Assembly (NCBI GenBank): GCA_902783995.1
Contig: CACZTG010000146.1
Span: forward strand, 1-7,894
Direction of reading: 5' to 3'
Origin: an uncultured Ruminococcus sp.
GTDB lineage: Bacteria; Bacillota_A; Clostridia; RUG12999
DNA: 7,894 nt
Shown here: positions 1-4,693 of the stretch, in pieces
How positions within the stretch are numbered: position 1 is the stretch's first letter
Layout of the letters: each line of letters opens with the position of its first letter
Program-made: the position numbers and the translations under genes
The notes under the pieces: model-generated
Databases searched by the model: none
What the model saw: only the letters and a program-made list of their open reading frames with translations
What the model was told of the DNA's origin: nothing

Positions 1-989
1 ATGAACTGACGATTGCGGCTGTTGGAAACGCTATGGATAACGGCGCGGAGCTGAAGCTTGGTTTTAAAGTCTCCGATATAAAAAAAGGGGAAAATTTTTA
101 TATTATATCATCGGAGGATGAAACCGTCAAAGCTGAATTTGTTGTAAACGCCGCAGGTTGCCATTCTGACGAGATAGCGGTCATGGCAGGCGATAACAGT
201 TTTAAAATAACGCCGAGAAGGGGAGAATATATCCTTCATGACAAAGAGTATGGAAATACGGTTTCAGCCACAATTTTCAGAACGCCCGGCAAAATGGGCA
301 AAGGCATACTTATTACGCCGACGGTTGACGGTAATCTCTTAACGGGACCTACGGCCGAAGATATTGAGGAAAAAGATGAAACAAGGACAACGGCGGAAGG
401 GCTTGAAAAAATTATTTCACAAAGCGTTGAAACCATTCCGAAGTTTAAATTTAATAAATCAATTACATCTTTTTGCGGCGTAAGGGCGACAGGGAATACG
501 GGAGATTTTATAATCAATTCACCTTTTAAAGGGTTTATAAATGCCGCCGGCATAGAATCTCCCGGACTTTCATCAGCACCTGCTATTGCTGTTTATATAG
601 TCAATATGTTAAAAGACGAGGGAATGAAGCTTAATAAAAACGAGGACTTTAACCCAATAAGAAAGCCTGCGCATTTTTTCAGAGAGCTGAGTACGAAAGA
701 GAAGAATGAAATTATAAAAAAGGATAAAAGCTATGGAAAAGTTGTTTGCCGGTGCGAAACAATTACCGAAGGGGAAATATTATACGCGATGAGGCAAAAC
801 CCAAAACCGTCCGACCTTGACGGTATAAAAAGGCGAACAAGAGCGCAAATGGGCAGATGTCAGGGAGGTTTCTGCTCGCCGTATATTGTTGAACTGATAA
901 AAAATGAGCTTGGTATTCCGTACGAAAAAGTTACAAAATGCGGAGGAAAATCATTTGTGAATGTCGGTAAGACGAAAGGAGATGAGTGA
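1..989 (+). CDS. FAD-dependent glycerol-3-phosphate dehydrogenase-like oxidoreductase with BFD-type [2Fe-2S] domain (5' partial)
   Basis: The frame is open from base 3 (codons for ELTIAAVGNA precede the first ATG at 33), so the gene starts upstream of the window and its N-terminal FAD-binding Rossmann motif is not visible. The visible part has the C-terminal half of a DAO-family oxidoreductase, including a FAD-domain stretch near 475-580 (GVRATGNTGDF, then AAGIESPGLSSAP). After it comes a BFD-like iron-sulfur domain with cysteines in a CxC (747-755) plus CxxxxC (858-875) pattern. This architecture is that of GlpA-type anaerobic G3P dehydrogenases, which oxidise G3P to dihydroxyacetone phosphate. 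The stop overlaps the GTG start of the next flavoprotein, which implies translational coupling, and the nearby glpP supports a G3P role. The substrate is inferred; L-2-hydroxyglutarate oxidase-like relatives share the fold. Confidence 0.88.
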   Translation, partial: ELTIAAVGNAMDNGAELKLGFKVSDIKKGENFYIISSEDETVKAEFVVNAAGCHSDEIAVMAGDNSFKITPRRGEYILHDKEYGNTVSATIFRTPGKMGKGILITPTVDGNLLTGPTAEDIEEKDETRTTAEGLEKIISQSVETIPKFKFNKSITSFCGVRATGNTGDFIINSPFKGFINAAGIESPGLSSAPAIAVYIVNMLKDEGMKLNKNEDFNPIRKPAHFFRELSTKEKNEIIKKDKSYGKVVCRCETITEGEILYAMRQNPKPSDLDGIKRRTRAQMGRCQGGFCSPYIVELIKNELGIPYEKVTKCGGKSFVNVGKTKGDE

Positions 990-2224
990 TAGTGACAGAC
1001 CTTGTAATTATAGGCGGAGGACCTGCCGGTATGAGTGCCGCGGTTGCCGCGTATGACAGCGGCATAAAGGACATACTGATACTTGAACGCGATACCGAGC
1101 TCGGCGGTATATTGCAGCAGTGTATTCATAACGGTTTCGGGCTTCATAAATTCGGTGATGAGCTTACGGGACCAGAATATGCGGGAAGATATAAAAAAAT
1201 GGTATATGAAAGAAAAATTCCGTATAAGCTTAATACAATGGTGCTGAGCATTAGCCCGGATAAAGTCATTACCGCTGCAAATGAGAATGACGGTATTTTT
1301 GAGATACGGGCAAAAGCGGTAATTCTCGCCATGGGCTGCCGTGAAAGACCAAAAGGAGCGCTTAATATTGCGGGAACAAGACCTGCAGGCATTTACAGCG
1401 CGGGAACGGCGCAGAAGTTTGTTAATATAAAGGGATATATGCCGGGGAAAAATGTTGTAATTTTAGGTTCCGGCGATATTGGGCTTATTATGGCAAGGCG
1501 AATGACGCTTGAAGGCGCGAAAGTGCATGCGGTGTGTGAAATTATGCCTTATTCGGGAGGACTTGCGAGAAATATTGAACAGTGCCTTAACGATTTTGAT
1601 ATTCCGCTTAAATTAAGTCATACGGTAGTAAATATTCACGGCAAAGAAAGGCTTGAGGGAGTGACTATCGCAAAAGTAGATGAAAGGCGCAGACCGATAC
1701 AGGGAACAGAGGAGTATATCACCTGCGATACCTTGCTTTTATCTGTTGGGCTAATACCCGAAAACGAGCTTTCCAAAACGGCGGGAATTGAACTTTCGGA
1801 TATAACGAACGGCGCGGTTGTTGACCAGGACAGGCAAACCTTTCGGGACGGTATTTTTGCCTGCGGAAATGTGCTTCACGTTCATGATTTGGTTGATTAT
1901 GTTTCGGACGAGGCGGAAATCGCGGGAAGAAGCGCAGCGGAATATATAAACGGCTGTAAATTCGACACCGTTTCAATACCCGTAACAACAGACGGTAAAG
2001 TAAGATATACGGTGCCGCAGTTAATAACAAAGAAAAAAGACATAACAATTTATTTCAGAGTAAGCGATGTTTTTAAAGATGTCAAAGTAAATGTTTACGG
2101 GGACGATAAACTTTTAATTTCAAAAAAGAAAAAAAAGGTCGCTCCGGGCGAAATGGAAACTTTAAAAATAAAAAAAGAGCTTTTTGAAGGAATAAACAGG
2201 CTTAAAGTACAGCTTGAAAGTTAA
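986..2224 (+). CDS. NAD(P)/FAD-dependent oxidoreductase, probable second subunit of G3P dehydrogenase complex
   Basis: A 412-residue two-dinucleotide-binding flavoprotein. Residues 10-15 (GGGPAG) form the N-terminal FAD-binding loop, residues 161-166 (GSGDIG) a second Rossmann loop for NAD(P), and FACGN at 291-295 followed by HVHDLVDYVS closes the FAD site. The conserved QQCIHNGFG (44-52) and MGCRERPKG (116-124) segments are typical of the family that sits beside GlpA-like proteins and DUF1667. Residues from about 330 form an extra lysine-rich beta-type C-terminal domain. The start is GTG at 986, overlapping the previous stop, with AAAGGAG at 975-981 only 4 bases upstream; a GTG at 992 (10 bases away) is an alternative start. 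It probably passes electrons between G3P dehydrogenase and NAD(P) or another carrier; the direction and partner are inferred. Confidence 0.9.
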   Translation: MIVTDLVIIGGGPAGMSAAVAAYDSGIKDILILERDTELGGILQQCIHNGFGLHKFGDELTGPEYAGRYKKMVYERKIPYKLNTMVLSISPDKVITAANENDGIFEIRAKAVILAMGCRERPKGALNIAGTRPAGIYSAGTAQKFVNIKGYMPGKNVVILGSGDIGLIMARRMTLEGAKVHAVCEIMPYSGGLARNIEQCLNDFDIPLKLSHTVVNIHGKERLEGVTIAKVDERRRPIQGTEEYITCDTLLLSVGLIPENELSKTAGIELSDITNGAVVDQDRQTFRDGIFACGNVLHVHDLVDYVSDEAEIAGRSAAEYINGCKFDTVSIPVTTDGKVRYTVPQLITKKKDITIYFRVSDVFKDVKVNVYGDDKLLISKKKKKVAPGEMETLKIKKELFEGINRLKVQLES

Positions 2225-2246
2225 ATCGAAAGGAACGATTTTAAAT

Positions 2247-2525
2247 ATGACAGAACGAAATATGACTTGTATAGTTTGTCCGCTCGGATGCGGCATTAAT
2301 GTTACAATGAACGAAGGAAAAATTATAAAAATCGAGGGAAACGGCTGTCCGAGAGGAGCAAAATACGCGGAAAGCGAATGTACAAACCCTGTGAGGACTC
2401 TCACAACCACAATAAAAAGTGATGACGGCAGAGTTTTGCCTGTTAAAACAAAAAAACCGATACCGAAAGGCAAACTTACGGAATATATGGAGATGATAAA
2501 TAATCTTGTTATTCATCTTGACTAA
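2247..2525 (+). CDS. DUF1667 family protein, C-terminally short
   Basis: A 92-residue protein. The N-terminus carries C8-x2-C11-x3-C15 and a distant C34, arranged like a 4Fe-4S cluster site; C45 is an additional cysteine. The block from GCPRGAKYAESE through NPVRTLTTT to PVKTKKPIPKG is the DUF1667 signature. ATG 2247 is preferred because AAAGGAA (2229-2235) lies upstream of it; the in-frame ATG at 2214 is inside the previous gene and has no ribosome binding site. Members I recall are about 115-125 residues and continue after this point with a V-rich KAPVKIGD-like tail; here the protein stops after MEMINNLVIHLD, so roughly 25 residues appear to be missing. No frameshift that restores the tail is visible in the following bases. 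It is probably a small Fe-S partner of the two flavoproteins; its function is experimentally unknown. Confidence 0.85.
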   Translation: MTERNMTCIVCPLGCGINVTMNEGKIIKIEGNGCPRGAKYAESECTNPVRTLTTTIKSDDGRVLPVKTKKPIPKGKLTEYMEMINNLVIHLD

Positions 2526-2546
2526 ATCCCAAAAAAATGATAAAAT
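2518..2546 (+). promoter_or_regulatory. sigma-A promoter for glpP-HAD unit
   Basis: TTGACT (2518-2523), a 17-base spacer, and TAAAAT (2541-2546): each box matches consensus at five of six positions with ideal spacing. The -35 box overlaps the stop codon of the DUF1667 gene. It would give a short leader of about 30 bases before glpP, allowing glpP to be expressed independently of the upstream flavoprotein genes. Confidence 0.75.
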
Positions 2547-2581
2547 GTCAGTATATTATCAAGACCGGAGAGTGAGTAAAA

Positions 2582-3109
2582 GTGCGAAAAAAAATTATCG
2601 CGGCGGTGAAGGGGGATATCGGCACCGCGCTAAAATCAGACACAGATATAATTTTTTATTTAAGTCCGAGTATAATGGATATTGAAAAAATAATTGACGA
2701 TGTACATAATGCGGGTAAAAAAATTTTTTTGCATTTTGACCTTGCTGAGGGTATCGGAAAAGATAAAGCGGGTTTAAAGTTTATTAAAAATCTTAGAATA
2801 GACGGTATAATAAGCACAAGAGTAAATATTATTAAAACGGCAAAGGAATTGGGAATTGTAACCGTTCAGAGGTTTTTTATTGTGGATTCACATTCTATAG
2901 AAACCACGGCAGAAGCTTTAAAAGCTTCAAAACCGGATATGATTGAGCTTATGCCCGGCATATTGCCGAAGGTTATAAAAAAAATCAAAGAGCAAACAAA
3001 TATTCCGATTATAGCGGGCGGGCTTATAGAAACTCCGGAGGAAGCGCAGGTATCGTTTGACGCGGGCGCAAGCGCTGTTTCGACAAGCAATAAAGAGCTT
3101 TGGAAATAA
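2582..3109 (+). CDS. glpP: GlpP, glycerol-3-phosphate-responsive antiterminator
   Basis: A 175-residue protein, full length for GlpP, a TIM-barrel-like RNA-binding regulator. In Bacillus, GlpP bound to G3P prevents termination in leaders of glpFK and glpD mRNAs. Clear signature blocks are FLHFDLAEGIG near residue 49, GIISTR at about 75, TVQRFFIVDS at about 94, PDMIELMPGILP, IPIIAGGLI and the C-terminal GASAVSTSNKELWK, all matching B. subtilis GlpP as I remember it. The start is GTG with GGAG (2567-2570) about 11 bases upstream. It has its own promoter in the tail of the preceding gene and is followed after 20 bases by the HAD gene. The location just after the dehydrogenase genes, rather than before them, and the lack of a visible target leader mean its regulated transcripts (probably including the operon upstream) begin outside the window. 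Confidence 0.93.
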   Translation: MRKKIIAAVKGDIGTALKSDTDIIFYLSPSIMDIEKIIDDVHNAGKKIFLHFDLAEGIGKDKAGLKFIKNLRIDGIISTRVNIIKTAKELGIVTVQRFFIVDSHSIETTAEALKASKPDMIELMPGILPKVIKKIKEQTNIPIIAGGLIETPEEAQVSFDAGASAVSTSNKELWK

Positions 3110-3129
3110 CAAAAAAGGAAGAAAAACAA

Positions 3130-3915
3130 ATGAAGAACAAAAAACTTTTTTTACTTGATATGGACGGGACAATTTATCTTGATAACACGCTTTTTGACGG
3201 AACAGAAGATTTTTTGTCTTACGTAAAAAAAATAGGCGGTAAATACATTTTTCTTACAAACAATTCTTCAAAAAGTGTAGATAAATATATAGAAAAAATG
3301 GCAAGTCTCGGCATTAAAACCACAGCTGATGATTTTTTGACTTCAACAGACGCAACAATTCCTGTATTAAGAAAAAGAAATTATAAGAAAATATATGCCT
3401 TTGGCACAACATCTTTTAAAAAGCAGCTTCTGGACGCCGGTTTTCCGATAACAGATAAGCTTGAGGACGGTATAGATTGCCTTTTAATGGGGTTCGATAC
3501 AGAGCTTACGTTTAAAAAGCTTGAAGATGCCTCAATACTTCTCGGTAAGGGCGTTGACTATATAGCGACCAATCCCGATTTGGTGTGTCCTACATGGTAC
3601 GGCTACGTTCCCGATTGCGGCTCTGTGAGCCGGATGCTGTACAACGCCACAAAACGTATGCCCGAATTTATAGGCAAGCCGCAGCCGGCAATGGCGCTTG
3701 CGGCAATGGAAAAAACAGGATTTTCAAAAGACGAAACGGCACTTATAGGGGATAGAATATATACGGATATTGCCTGCGGTGTAAATGCCGGTATAACCTC
3801 GGTGCTTGTACTCAGCGGTGAAGCCACACCGGAGGATGTTGAAAAAAGCGATGTTAAGCCTACATTCATATACAAAAATATAAGAGAAATATATAATGAA
3901 CTTATAAAAACTTGA
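3130..3915 (+). CDS. HAD-IIA (NagD/AraL-like) phosphatase
   Basis: A 261-residue HAD hydrolase of the p-nitrophenylphosphatase/NagD class. All four HAD motifs are present: nucleophile D10 and D12 in LDMDGTI, T43 with N44 in FLTNNSS, K183 in IGKPQP, and acidic D208/D213 in GDRIYTD. The cap between motifs II and III (about residues 75-180, containing TNPD and PTWYGYVPDCGS) is the type C2 cap of subclass IIA, which excludes large substrates and favours small sugar or polyol phosphates. ATG 3130 is chosen because AAAGGAAG (3114-3121) lies 8 bases upstream; an in-frame ATG at 3100 is inside glpP. Coexpression with GlpP makes phosphatase action on G3P, dihydroxyacetone phosphate or phosphoglycolate plausible, but the substrate is not determined by the sequence. 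Confidence 0.88.
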   Translation: MKNKKLFLLDMDGTIYLDNTLFDGTEDFLSYVKKIGGKYIFLTNNSSKSVDKYIEKMASLGIKTTADDFLTSTDATIPVLRKRNYKKIYAFGTTSFKKQLLDAGFPITDKLEDGIDCLLMGFDTELTFKKLEDASILLGKGVDYIATNPDLVCPTWYGYVPDCGSVSRMLYNATKRMPEFIGKPQPAMALAAMEKTGFSKDETALIGDRIYTDIACGVNAGITSVLVLSGEATPEDVEKSDVKPTFIYKNIREIYNELIKT

Positions 3916-3940
3916 CATTCTTTTATTTTTACGGTATAAT
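3912..3940 (+). promoter_or_regulatory. perfect consensus sigma-A promoter for DMT transporter leader
   Basis: TTGACA (3912-3917), 17 bases, TATAAT (3935-3940), all twelve consensus bases present. The TGA stop of the HAD gene is bases 3913-3915, inside the -35 box. Such a strong promoter ahead of a hairpin-terminator leader is typical of genes controlled after initiation by attenuation. Confidence 0.88.
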
Positions 3941-3948
3941 ATATAAAA

Positions 3949-4016
3949 ATGGTGAATACTACCGACAGCCGGGCTGAATATAGCCCGGTTGTTTTTAGAG
4001 ACACCCGGCTAAGGAG
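3949..4016 (+). promoter_or_regulatory. structured 5' leader: candidate riboswitch/attenuator upstream of DMT transporter
   Basis: Two hairpins with related loops stand in tandem. The first is GGT-GAATACT-ACC (3951-3963). The second is an 11-bp stem with loop GAATAT (3965-3992) and doubles as a terminator. The segment AGCCGGG (3967-3973) in the 5' arm of hairpin 2 can alternatively pair over 7 bp with CCCGGCT (4004-4010), which directly abuts the Shine-Dalgarno AAGGAG (4011-4016). The alternative partner lies downstream of the T-tract, so it cannot prevent termination by simple competition during synthesis; it may act in an aptamer fold or on translation. The guanidine-IV (mepA) class, also upstream of clostridial exporters and acting on termination, is one candidate from memory; I cannot confirm the consensus. 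Confidence 0.6.
3965..3996 (+). terminator. intrinsic terminator in leader (attenuator)
   Basis: The stem ACAGCCGGGCT (3965-3975) pairs with AGCCCGGTTGT (3982-3992), 11 bp including one G-T pair, around a 6-base loop, and runs straight into TTTTT (3992-3996). It lies about 25 bases after the predicted transcription start and before the ribosome binding site. It can stop both the new transcript and any read-through from the HAD gene, which has no other terminator. Confidence 0.82.
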
Positions 4017-4024
4017 ATTTAAAA

Positions 4025-4441
4025 ATGTATTTTCCGATATTAATTATTGTTTTATCAAATATTTTTTATCACATATGCTCAAAGGAAACGCCAAAAAGTA
4101 TACATCCGATGGCATCGCTTGCGGTTACATATATTGTTGGAGCTGTTTTCTCGGTAATTCTGTATTTTATAATGAATAAAGGCGGTAACATAATTGCCGA
4201 ATGTTCTCATATCAATTGGGCTTCGGTTGTGCTTGGCATTGCGATTGTAGGGCTTGAAGGCGGTTTTATTTATGCCTATAAGGCGGGGTGGGAGGTTAGC
4301 ACGGCGCAGCTTGTATCAAGCGCTTTGCTTGCTCTTGCGCTTATAGCCGCAGGAACACTTTTATATCATGAAACAATAACATTAAAAAAAGTTATCGGTA
4401 TAGCGGTTTGCCTTGTAGGTCTGGGGATTATTAATATGTAG
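4025..4441 (+). CDS. half-size EamA/DMT-family transporter
   Basis: A 138-residue, very hydrophobic protein with five predicted membrane segments at about residues 2-18, 29-50, 64-85, 92-114 and 119-137. This is one EamA repeat rather than the usual ten-helix pair, so it probably works as a dimer in the inner membrane. The GLEGGFIYAYKAG stretch followed by STAQLVSSALLAL, then a short basic loop (LKK) and a glycine-rich last helix, are typical of this small drug/metabolite transporter group. AAGGAG (4011-4016) lies 8 bases before the ATG. It has its own consensus promoter and terminator-containing leader, pointing to induction by a small molecule that may be the exported substrate. The substrate is not identifiable; toxic cation or metabolite export is an inference. 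Confidence 0.85.
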   Translation: MYFPILIIVLSNIFYHICSKETPKSIHPMASLAVTYIVGAVFSVILYFIMNKGGNIIAECSHINWASVVLGIAIVGLEGGFIYAYKAGWEVSTAQLVSSALLALALIAAGTLLYHETITLKKVIGIAVCLVGLGIINM

Positions 4442-4573: not shown

Positions 4574-4660
4574 GCACCTGTGGCGGAATTGGCAGACGCG
4601 CACGGTTCAGGTCCGTGTGCCGGTAACGGCTTAGGAGTTCAAGTCTCCTCAGGTGCACCA
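4574..4660 (+). tRNA. tRNA-Leu(CAG)
   Basis: An 87-base class II tRNA with CCA encoded. The acceptor stem GCACCTG (4574-4580) pairs perfectly with CAGGTGC (4650-4656), then discriminator A and CCA (4658-4660). The anticodon arm is CACGG-TTCAGGT-CCGTG, giving anticodon CAG, which reads the leucine codon CTG. A long variable arm (GCCG-GTAA-CGGC) and T arm AGGAG-TTCAAGT-CTCCT complete the leucine-type cloverleaf. It is a single gene with its own promoter and terminator. Confidence 0.97.
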
Positions 4661-4662
4661 CG

Positions 4663-4693
4663 TCGGAGCAAGCTTCATTTGCTCCGATTTTTT
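4663..4693 (+). terminator. intrinsic terminator of tRNA-Leu
   Basis: A perfect 9-bp stem, TCGGAGCAA (4663-4671) with TTGCTCCGA (4679-4687), a 7-base loop and six T residues (4688-4693). It starts two bases after the encoded CCA. Confidence 0.93.

Follow-up and report, generated by a model that had tools for sequence, protein, structure and literature searches.

Among described systems, those most similar to the RNA element reported here are the guanidine-IV riboswitch and its variant Gd4v. In the accessible text of the studies on guanidine-IV (also called GGAM-1 or the mepA motif), a first hairpin and a terminator hairpin are joined by a pseudoknot and the ligand blocks termination; its gene partners include MATE transporters and N-acetyltransferases, with sugE the commonest (PMC7736828, PMC9788692, PMC12186494, PMC11611296). 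The loop-2 bases G66, U67 and G72 in L. lactis are given there as 97% conserved, and for C. botulinum the kissing partners are A29-U72 and C30-G71, with G71, U72 and G77 in loop 2 (PMC7736828, PMC11611296). The constructs described measure 88-95 nt, with 40 nt between C30 and G71 (PMC7736828, PMC11611296). Gd4v, whose ligand is unknown, likewise has a terminator hairpin joined to the first hairpin by a pseudoknot, and the accessible text on it describes constructs of 95-105 nt, an extra terminator hairpin and a position ahead of a transaminase in more than half of the cases (PMC9788692). EamA transporters are not mentioned in the main text, as accessible, of PMC7736828 and PMC9788692.

In this paper we describe the leader of a half-size EamA exporter gene from an uncultured Ruminococcus sp. 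and compare it with the leaders of related genes. The whole stretch of DNA analysed, 7,894 nucleotides, is referred to as the window. Based on sequence comparison we conclude, with a probability of roughly two in three, that this leader is a diverged and probably decaying member of an unnamed conserved family of cis-regulatory RNAs in Clostridia, which is a candidate riboswitch.

Results

The leader is found between a HAD gene and the exporter gene, and its features are as follows.

3912..3940, + strand: sigma-70-type promoter, TTGACA-17-TATAAT, 12 of 12 consensus bases
3947..3978, + strand: diverged copy of the putative pseudoknot element, the best match in the window to our model R1 (17.4 bits, E 0.0018)
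3950..3952, + strand: stem 1, 5' strand, UGG (family CGG), from alignment A3 and the model alignment
3953..3961, + strand: loop 1, UGAAUACUA (family GUGAGCACCUA; two bases shorter in the window), from the alignment and the model alignment
3962..3964, + strand: stem 1, 3' strand, CCG, from the alignment and the model alignment
3966..3996, + strand: intrinsic terminator, stem 3966-3976/3981-3991, loop 3977-3980, U run 3992-3996
3971..3975, + strand: GGGCU, counterpart of the family AGGCU (putative stem 2, 3' strand), from the alignment
4004..4010, + strand: CCCGGCU, able to pair with 3967-3973 in the swapped-partner test, without conservation in the family
4011..4016, + strand: Shine-Dalgarno sequence AAGGAG, read from the sequence
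4025..4441, + strand: half-size EamA/DMT exporter gene, 138 aa (PF00892, 36.9 bits, cut-off 28.2)

The TTGACA hexamer of the promoter shares bases with the HAD stop codon. A first-pass annotation of the same DNA had described a perfect promoter, two GAATA sequences (3954-3958 and 3976-3980), the segments AGCCGGG (3967-3973) and CCCGGCT (4004-4010) and an 11-bp terminator followed by five T, all of which we find as described. The terminator stem has 11 pairs, two of them G-U, and none of 38 swapped partners pairs with its 5' arm as strongly as its own 3' side does. The leader from 3947 to 4030 folds with -28.6 kcal/mol; shuffled sequences average -15.4 (sd 2.7; z -4.8, 0/200 as good).

The annotation had also proposed that the AGCCGGG arm chooses between the terminator and CCCGGCT. 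Within the window this alternative pairing is strong, with -17.0 kcal/mol for the terminator arm and the stretch past the U run and -7.5 with swapped partners. As a conserved switch arm it does not hold up, the own partner being the stronger one in just 18 of 45 leaders. Furthermore, the third partner lies past the terminator, so that it is impossible for this pairing to form before the termination decision is made.

Elsewhere in the window, positions 3-3109 carry a glycerol-3-phosphate-like operon with an FAD oxidoreductase with a BFD domain, a second FAD protein, DUF1667 and a GlpP-type antiterminator. A tRNA gene (49 bits) is found at 4574-4657, and a hairpin resembling a terminator comes after it at 4662-4688.

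A protein search resulted in 102 relatives, and 39 sequences, that of the window and 38 relatives, were aligned. With this alignment more than 80 orthologous loci were located, and the best 80, whose titles are mostly Clostridia with many gut or rumen assemblies, were used for the leader analysis, in which the 150 bases 5' of each orthologous gene were read. These leaders contain a strongly conserved block, GGGTGAGCACCTACCGACAGTCAGGCTA and its variants. Among the best 80 leaders, 28 are included in alignment A2, 49 have no clear element and two (L025, L059) are diverged or doubtful, while L058 retains the element separated from the exporter by an inserted transposase-like gene. The L058 element lies at 2328-2360, and the translation of the inserted gene (2459-3745) reads like an IS110-type transposase. 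The GAATA sequences do not recur in the orthologous leaders, which carry UGAGCACCUA and AGGCU in these places, and their suggested role as twin ligand loops is not supported.

The conserved block of about 30 nt fits an H-type pseudoknot. Stem 1 would consist of CGG and CCG, and stem 2 of (A/G/C)G-CA-CCU with AGGC(U/C/G), in which loop bases 9, 10, 13, 14 and 15 pair with 32, 31, 30, 29 and 28. Our pair and linker counts are based on 62 leaders; they omit the window and the diverged L055, L042, L025 and L059, the last four of which would reduce the pair counts if added, as well as L312 (cut by a contig end) and L326 (no recognised gene). The terminator and loop-signature counts have the same omissions with the window kept (63 leaders), and L142, which has no recognised gene, is absent from all leader counts.

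The outermost stem-2 pair, 9-32, is the variable one: it is AU in 38 leaders, GC in 16, CG in four, GU and UG in one each and mismatched in two. A standard pair is thus found in 60 of 62 leaders; 5000 shuffles gave 41.0 on average and never more than 49. The kinship of the sequences inflates this covariation, however. The other stem-2 pairs are near-invariant and therefore speak neither for nor against the pseudoknot model. For the whole structure, 96.3% of the cells in A2 are paired, against 92.4% after shuffling and 22-56% after sliding; two pairs are changed on both sides, a number equalled in 56 of 500 shuffles. Two loop bases are near-constant in the 39 distinct rows (U7 in 39, G8 in 38) and may line a binding pocket. 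The linker has a length of 4-9 nt and measures 6 nt in 51/62 leaders, so that, with the ACCG added, 10 nt separate the innermost stem-2 partners in most leaders. A -10-like hexamer is found at most 24 nt upstream in 49/65 leaders, where about 30 would be expected. A sequence-based search for a solved structure found none.

A terminator that begins in or past the ACCG is predicted in 45/63 leaders, including the window. Each consists of a single hairpin, interrupted in some leaders by small bulges or internal loops, and all 45 pair at least one base of AGGCY. In 27 of them the pairing also involves stem 1, at C17 or C18; in the other 18, among them the window, stem 1 stays free. The sharing of AGGCY between the putative pseudoknot and the terminator implies that the two folds compete, to a degree that differs among leaders, and this use of AGGCY by the terminator predicts an ON switch. 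The terminators are maintained despite sequence change: there are 22 distinct 5' arms and pairing is kept nonetheless. The own partner exceeds the mean of the swapped partners in 46/47 leaders (window included; the exception is L329) and ranks among the top 5% of swaps in 33/47.

No terminator is predicted for the remaining 18/63 leaders. Two of these, L321 and L328, are counted here by our U-run rule and seem to have a terminator whose U run is short. In the other 16, AGGCC is found near the Shine-Dalgarno sequence. Judging from this arrangement, the terminator-less leaders probably act on translation. Three terminator-less leaders (L043, L044, L068) show an extra hairpin just upstream of the element, with arms GGAGC/GCTCC or AAGAG/CTCTT that appear to covary.

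For the taxonomic survey, model R1 was built from exporter leaders with the window excluded, and it was run on genomes sampled by class, family and phylum. As a consequence of this construction the survey is biased toward exporter-type elements. Positive genomes numbered 7/391, 13/250, 3/398, 5/280 and 19/250 in the samples, which overlap. There was one match per positive genome except in G1446, which has three, two of them the same element at two contig ends. This genome therefore carries two separate elements, one before a half-size EamA gene (L328/L312) and one before another EamA frame (L329).

After merging, 43 distinct elements remain, and 41 of them are located ahead of an exporter or GNAT gene. 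The partner is a half-size EamA gene in 27/43 (by translation reading or as orthologous loci), a MATE gene in 9/43 (all confirmed by Pfam), another EamA gene in 4/43 (Pfam; that of L329 is a 159-aa reading frame) and a GNAT acetyltransferase gene in 1/43 (Pfam). Two elements, L142 and L326, have no recognised gene. A BLAST search of plasmids and phages with a leader-like query returned short pieces only. The pattern scan of viral contigs gave at least 120 stretches, which we take as chance hits, the pattern having no more than 15 fixed bases.

Protein-dependent attenuators likewise use hairpins that overlap terminators, and the element could be bound by a regulator of attenuation or antitermination instead of a small ligand. 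A candidate is encoded in the window itself, where a GlpP-like gene (PF04309) is found two genes ahead of the exporter gene. At the other loci viewed, the neighbour genes are diverse in size and translation, and no shared neighbour of the exporter was seen at those where we looked for one. The bases that are conserved belong to the small putative pseudoknot or its immediate surroundings, and nearly all positive genomes have a single element, placed before differing exporter families. We consider a protein binder rather improbable, and favour direct sensing of a small ligand.

Comparison with known riboswitches

A scan of 18 motif-bearing loci against the 4227 families of Rfam gave no match at the gathering score, a result that carries no weight on guanidine-IV. 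The window leader gave no match at this score either, in agreement with the option of an undescribed class that the first-pass annotation had left standing. At a relaxed threshold the window and L003 leaders have sub-threshold matches to unrelated families and the L043 leader has none. We also searched the literature, other than subscription journals and preprints, for the core sequence and the gene sets, and met no account of this element.

Several small or orphan riboswitches resemble the new family in part. The preQ1-I riboswitch and other small H-type pseudoknot riboswitches are similar to it in size and topology and differ in sequence and genes; no Rfam match is found at threshold in the window leader or the 18 family loci. 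Rfam includes a model of the HMP-PP riboswitch. In the accessible text of PMC8632094, the HMP-PP riboswitch and the HRC-8-4 motif have conserved bases at the terminator tip and an aptamer fold that would block the terminator, as we propose here, but they precede other genes, and the 18 family loci lack an Rfam match. The orphan ykkC subtype 2d shares an unknown ligand and EamA transporters with the new family in the accessible text of PMC7266159, but belongs as a variant to guanidine-I, whose fold is much larger than the compact new element. Guanidine-I (RF00442) has matches in SMR loci and none in the 18 scanned loci of the new family.

The most serious comparison is that with guanidine-IV and Gd4v, of which the element might be a compact branch, a terminator-tip aptamer for guanidine or for the ligand of Gd4v. 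The regulatory logic is alike: guanidine-IV and Gd4v join a first and a terminator hairpin by a pseudoknot, and in 45/63 leaders of the new family the terminator hairpin bears one of the putative pseudoknot partners. MATE and N-acetyltransferase (GNAT) genes are common to all, and Gd4v, according to the accessible text on it, is also from gut bacteria. The details differ, however. The guanidine-IV loop signature G-U-N4-G occurs in 3/63 leaders (L044, L080, L108) when the whole loop region is scanned, in 1/63 when the scan begins at the AGG, and is absent from the window leader. The element measures about 30 nt with about 10 nt between the innermost partners in most leaders, against 88-95 nt and 40 nt (C. 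botulinum) in guanidine-IV and the still larger Gd4v. Neither sugE (SMR), the commonest partner of guanidine-IV, nor the transaminase that Gd4v mostly precedes is found among the 41 recognised genes.

In 42 SMR-gene loci, R1 gave no match below E 0.1 (best 15.2 bits, E 0.11); this SMR-gene route to guanidine-IV sequences yielded guanidine-I leaders, coding overlaps and other leaders. Three of the SMR leaders (L157, L174, L175) have GATTACCGCCGGGTACG in common, ahead of a terminator whose tip reads CCAGTAGGCCTT, possibly another terminator-tip element; by eye they are not guanidine-I, and a Rfam scan of L157 was without match. Another leader upstream of an SMR gene, L145, resembles a truncated guanidine-I remnant in which the terminator part alone is recognisable, and has no Rfam match.

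A branch of guanidine-IV or Gd4v is thus unlikely, and the guanidine-IV membership that had been suggested for the window leader finds no support, the published loop signature and spacing not being those of the family. Judging by the published descriptions, we regard the family as probably separate. Since gene classes are shared, it is plausible that its ligand is chemically similar to those of guanidine-IV and Gd4v.

Divergence of the window copy

The window leader is in register with the terminator-type leaders, with GGUGAAUA-CUACCGACAGCCGGGCU beside GGGUGAGCACCUACCGACAGUCAGGCU, and its element lies between the promoter and the half-size EamA gene with the AGGCY-equivalent strand inside the terminator. 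Stem 1 can still form, as UGG/CCG with a closing U-G pair. The putative stem 2 is damaged. Two loop bases are deleted, one of which is a stem-2 C, and with it one of the five pairs is lost. From the others an A-U and one C-G are kept, a U-G wobble stands for U-A and an A-C mismatch for G-C. The diverged 5' strand of stem 2 is contained in loop 1 (3953..3961), and all five bases of GGGCU (3971..3975) are also paired within the terminator. For the stem-2 duplex we obtain +0.2 kcal/mol, where the median of the family is -2.7.

The R1 match of 17.4 bits at 3947-3978 coincides exactly with this aligned place; a second match, of 14.4 bits, is found elsewhere in the window. Arithmetic from the first score gives an E of the order of 1e-5 for the about 110 same-strand leader bases, yet the score is near chance level for larger searches, and a match elsewhere in L080 reaches 18.7 bits. 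As the score is weak and stem 2 is essentially gone, homology of the window copy rests on position and register.

This raises the question whether the window hairpin belongs to the family at all, or is a terminator of the HAD gene or a strong hairpin arisen by chance. The near-chance score, the broken stem 2 and the lack of a recognisable element in the leader of L001, the closest distinct ortholog (91% protein identity), are all in line with an unrelated hairpin. The idea of a mere read-through terminator conflicts with the 12/12 promoter, which sits between the HAD gene and the hairpin; in addition, GGUG...CUACCGACAG...GGGCU is kept in register at the orthologous place, and the z-score of the fold speaks against chance. 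We give an unrelated hairpin little credence and return to the window leader as a diverged family member.

In the exporter tree the window joins L001 with support 100/99. The two stand beside 15 rows, of which ten are of the terminator type, two are diverged and three are without element, in a joint group whose support of 93/77 is not strong. The simplest reading of these comparisons is that the element is decaying in the lineage of the window. With the terminator intact and stem 2 broken, the window copy is probably on its way to a plain attenuator; a shift in specificity is less likely. As the terminator is still strong, the exporter gene may be weakly expressed by read-through.

Discussion

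We propose that in intact members of the family, such as L003 (Faecalicatena faecalis) and L029 (Oscillibacter), a pseudoknot of the H-type, about 30 nt long, would form near the transcript start and be stabilised by a small ligand. The AGGCY strand, and in many leaders also the CC of stem 1, would be needed by the terminator, so that the two folds would compete. Transcription would enter the exporter gene with the ligand bound and stop when it is absent. A second form without terminator would probably be translational. What we observe directly is the conservation, the covariation, the overlap with the terminator and the gene partners; the pseudoknot fold, the binding of a ligand, the ON direction and the nature of the ligand are deduced from these.

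The earlier proposal of a ligand-sensing leader survives in so far as a riboswitch-like, terminator-bearing family stands ahead of exporters. For the window itself a response is doubtful, its copy having diverged. Given that the gene partners are exporters and an acetyltransferase, the ligand may be a small amine or cation that is harmful; it would be exportable and possibly acetylatable.

On balance we lean towards the view that the family is an undescribed riboswitch class, an H-type pseudoknot of about 30 nt that would be among the smallest aptamers, with a termination and a translation form. It would sense a small exportable amine or cation of gut and rumen and activate exporters of the EamA and MATE kinds as well as an N-acetyltransferase; the window would be an example of the class being lost.

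If this view is true, the ligand would reveal what some MATE pumps and a large group of still uncharacterised half-size EamA exporters transport in gut bacteria, and the aptamer size of about 30 nt allows quick structure work. Furthermore, comparing related species that carry the element with a terminator, without one, in damaged form or no longer at all would show how a riboswitch decays.
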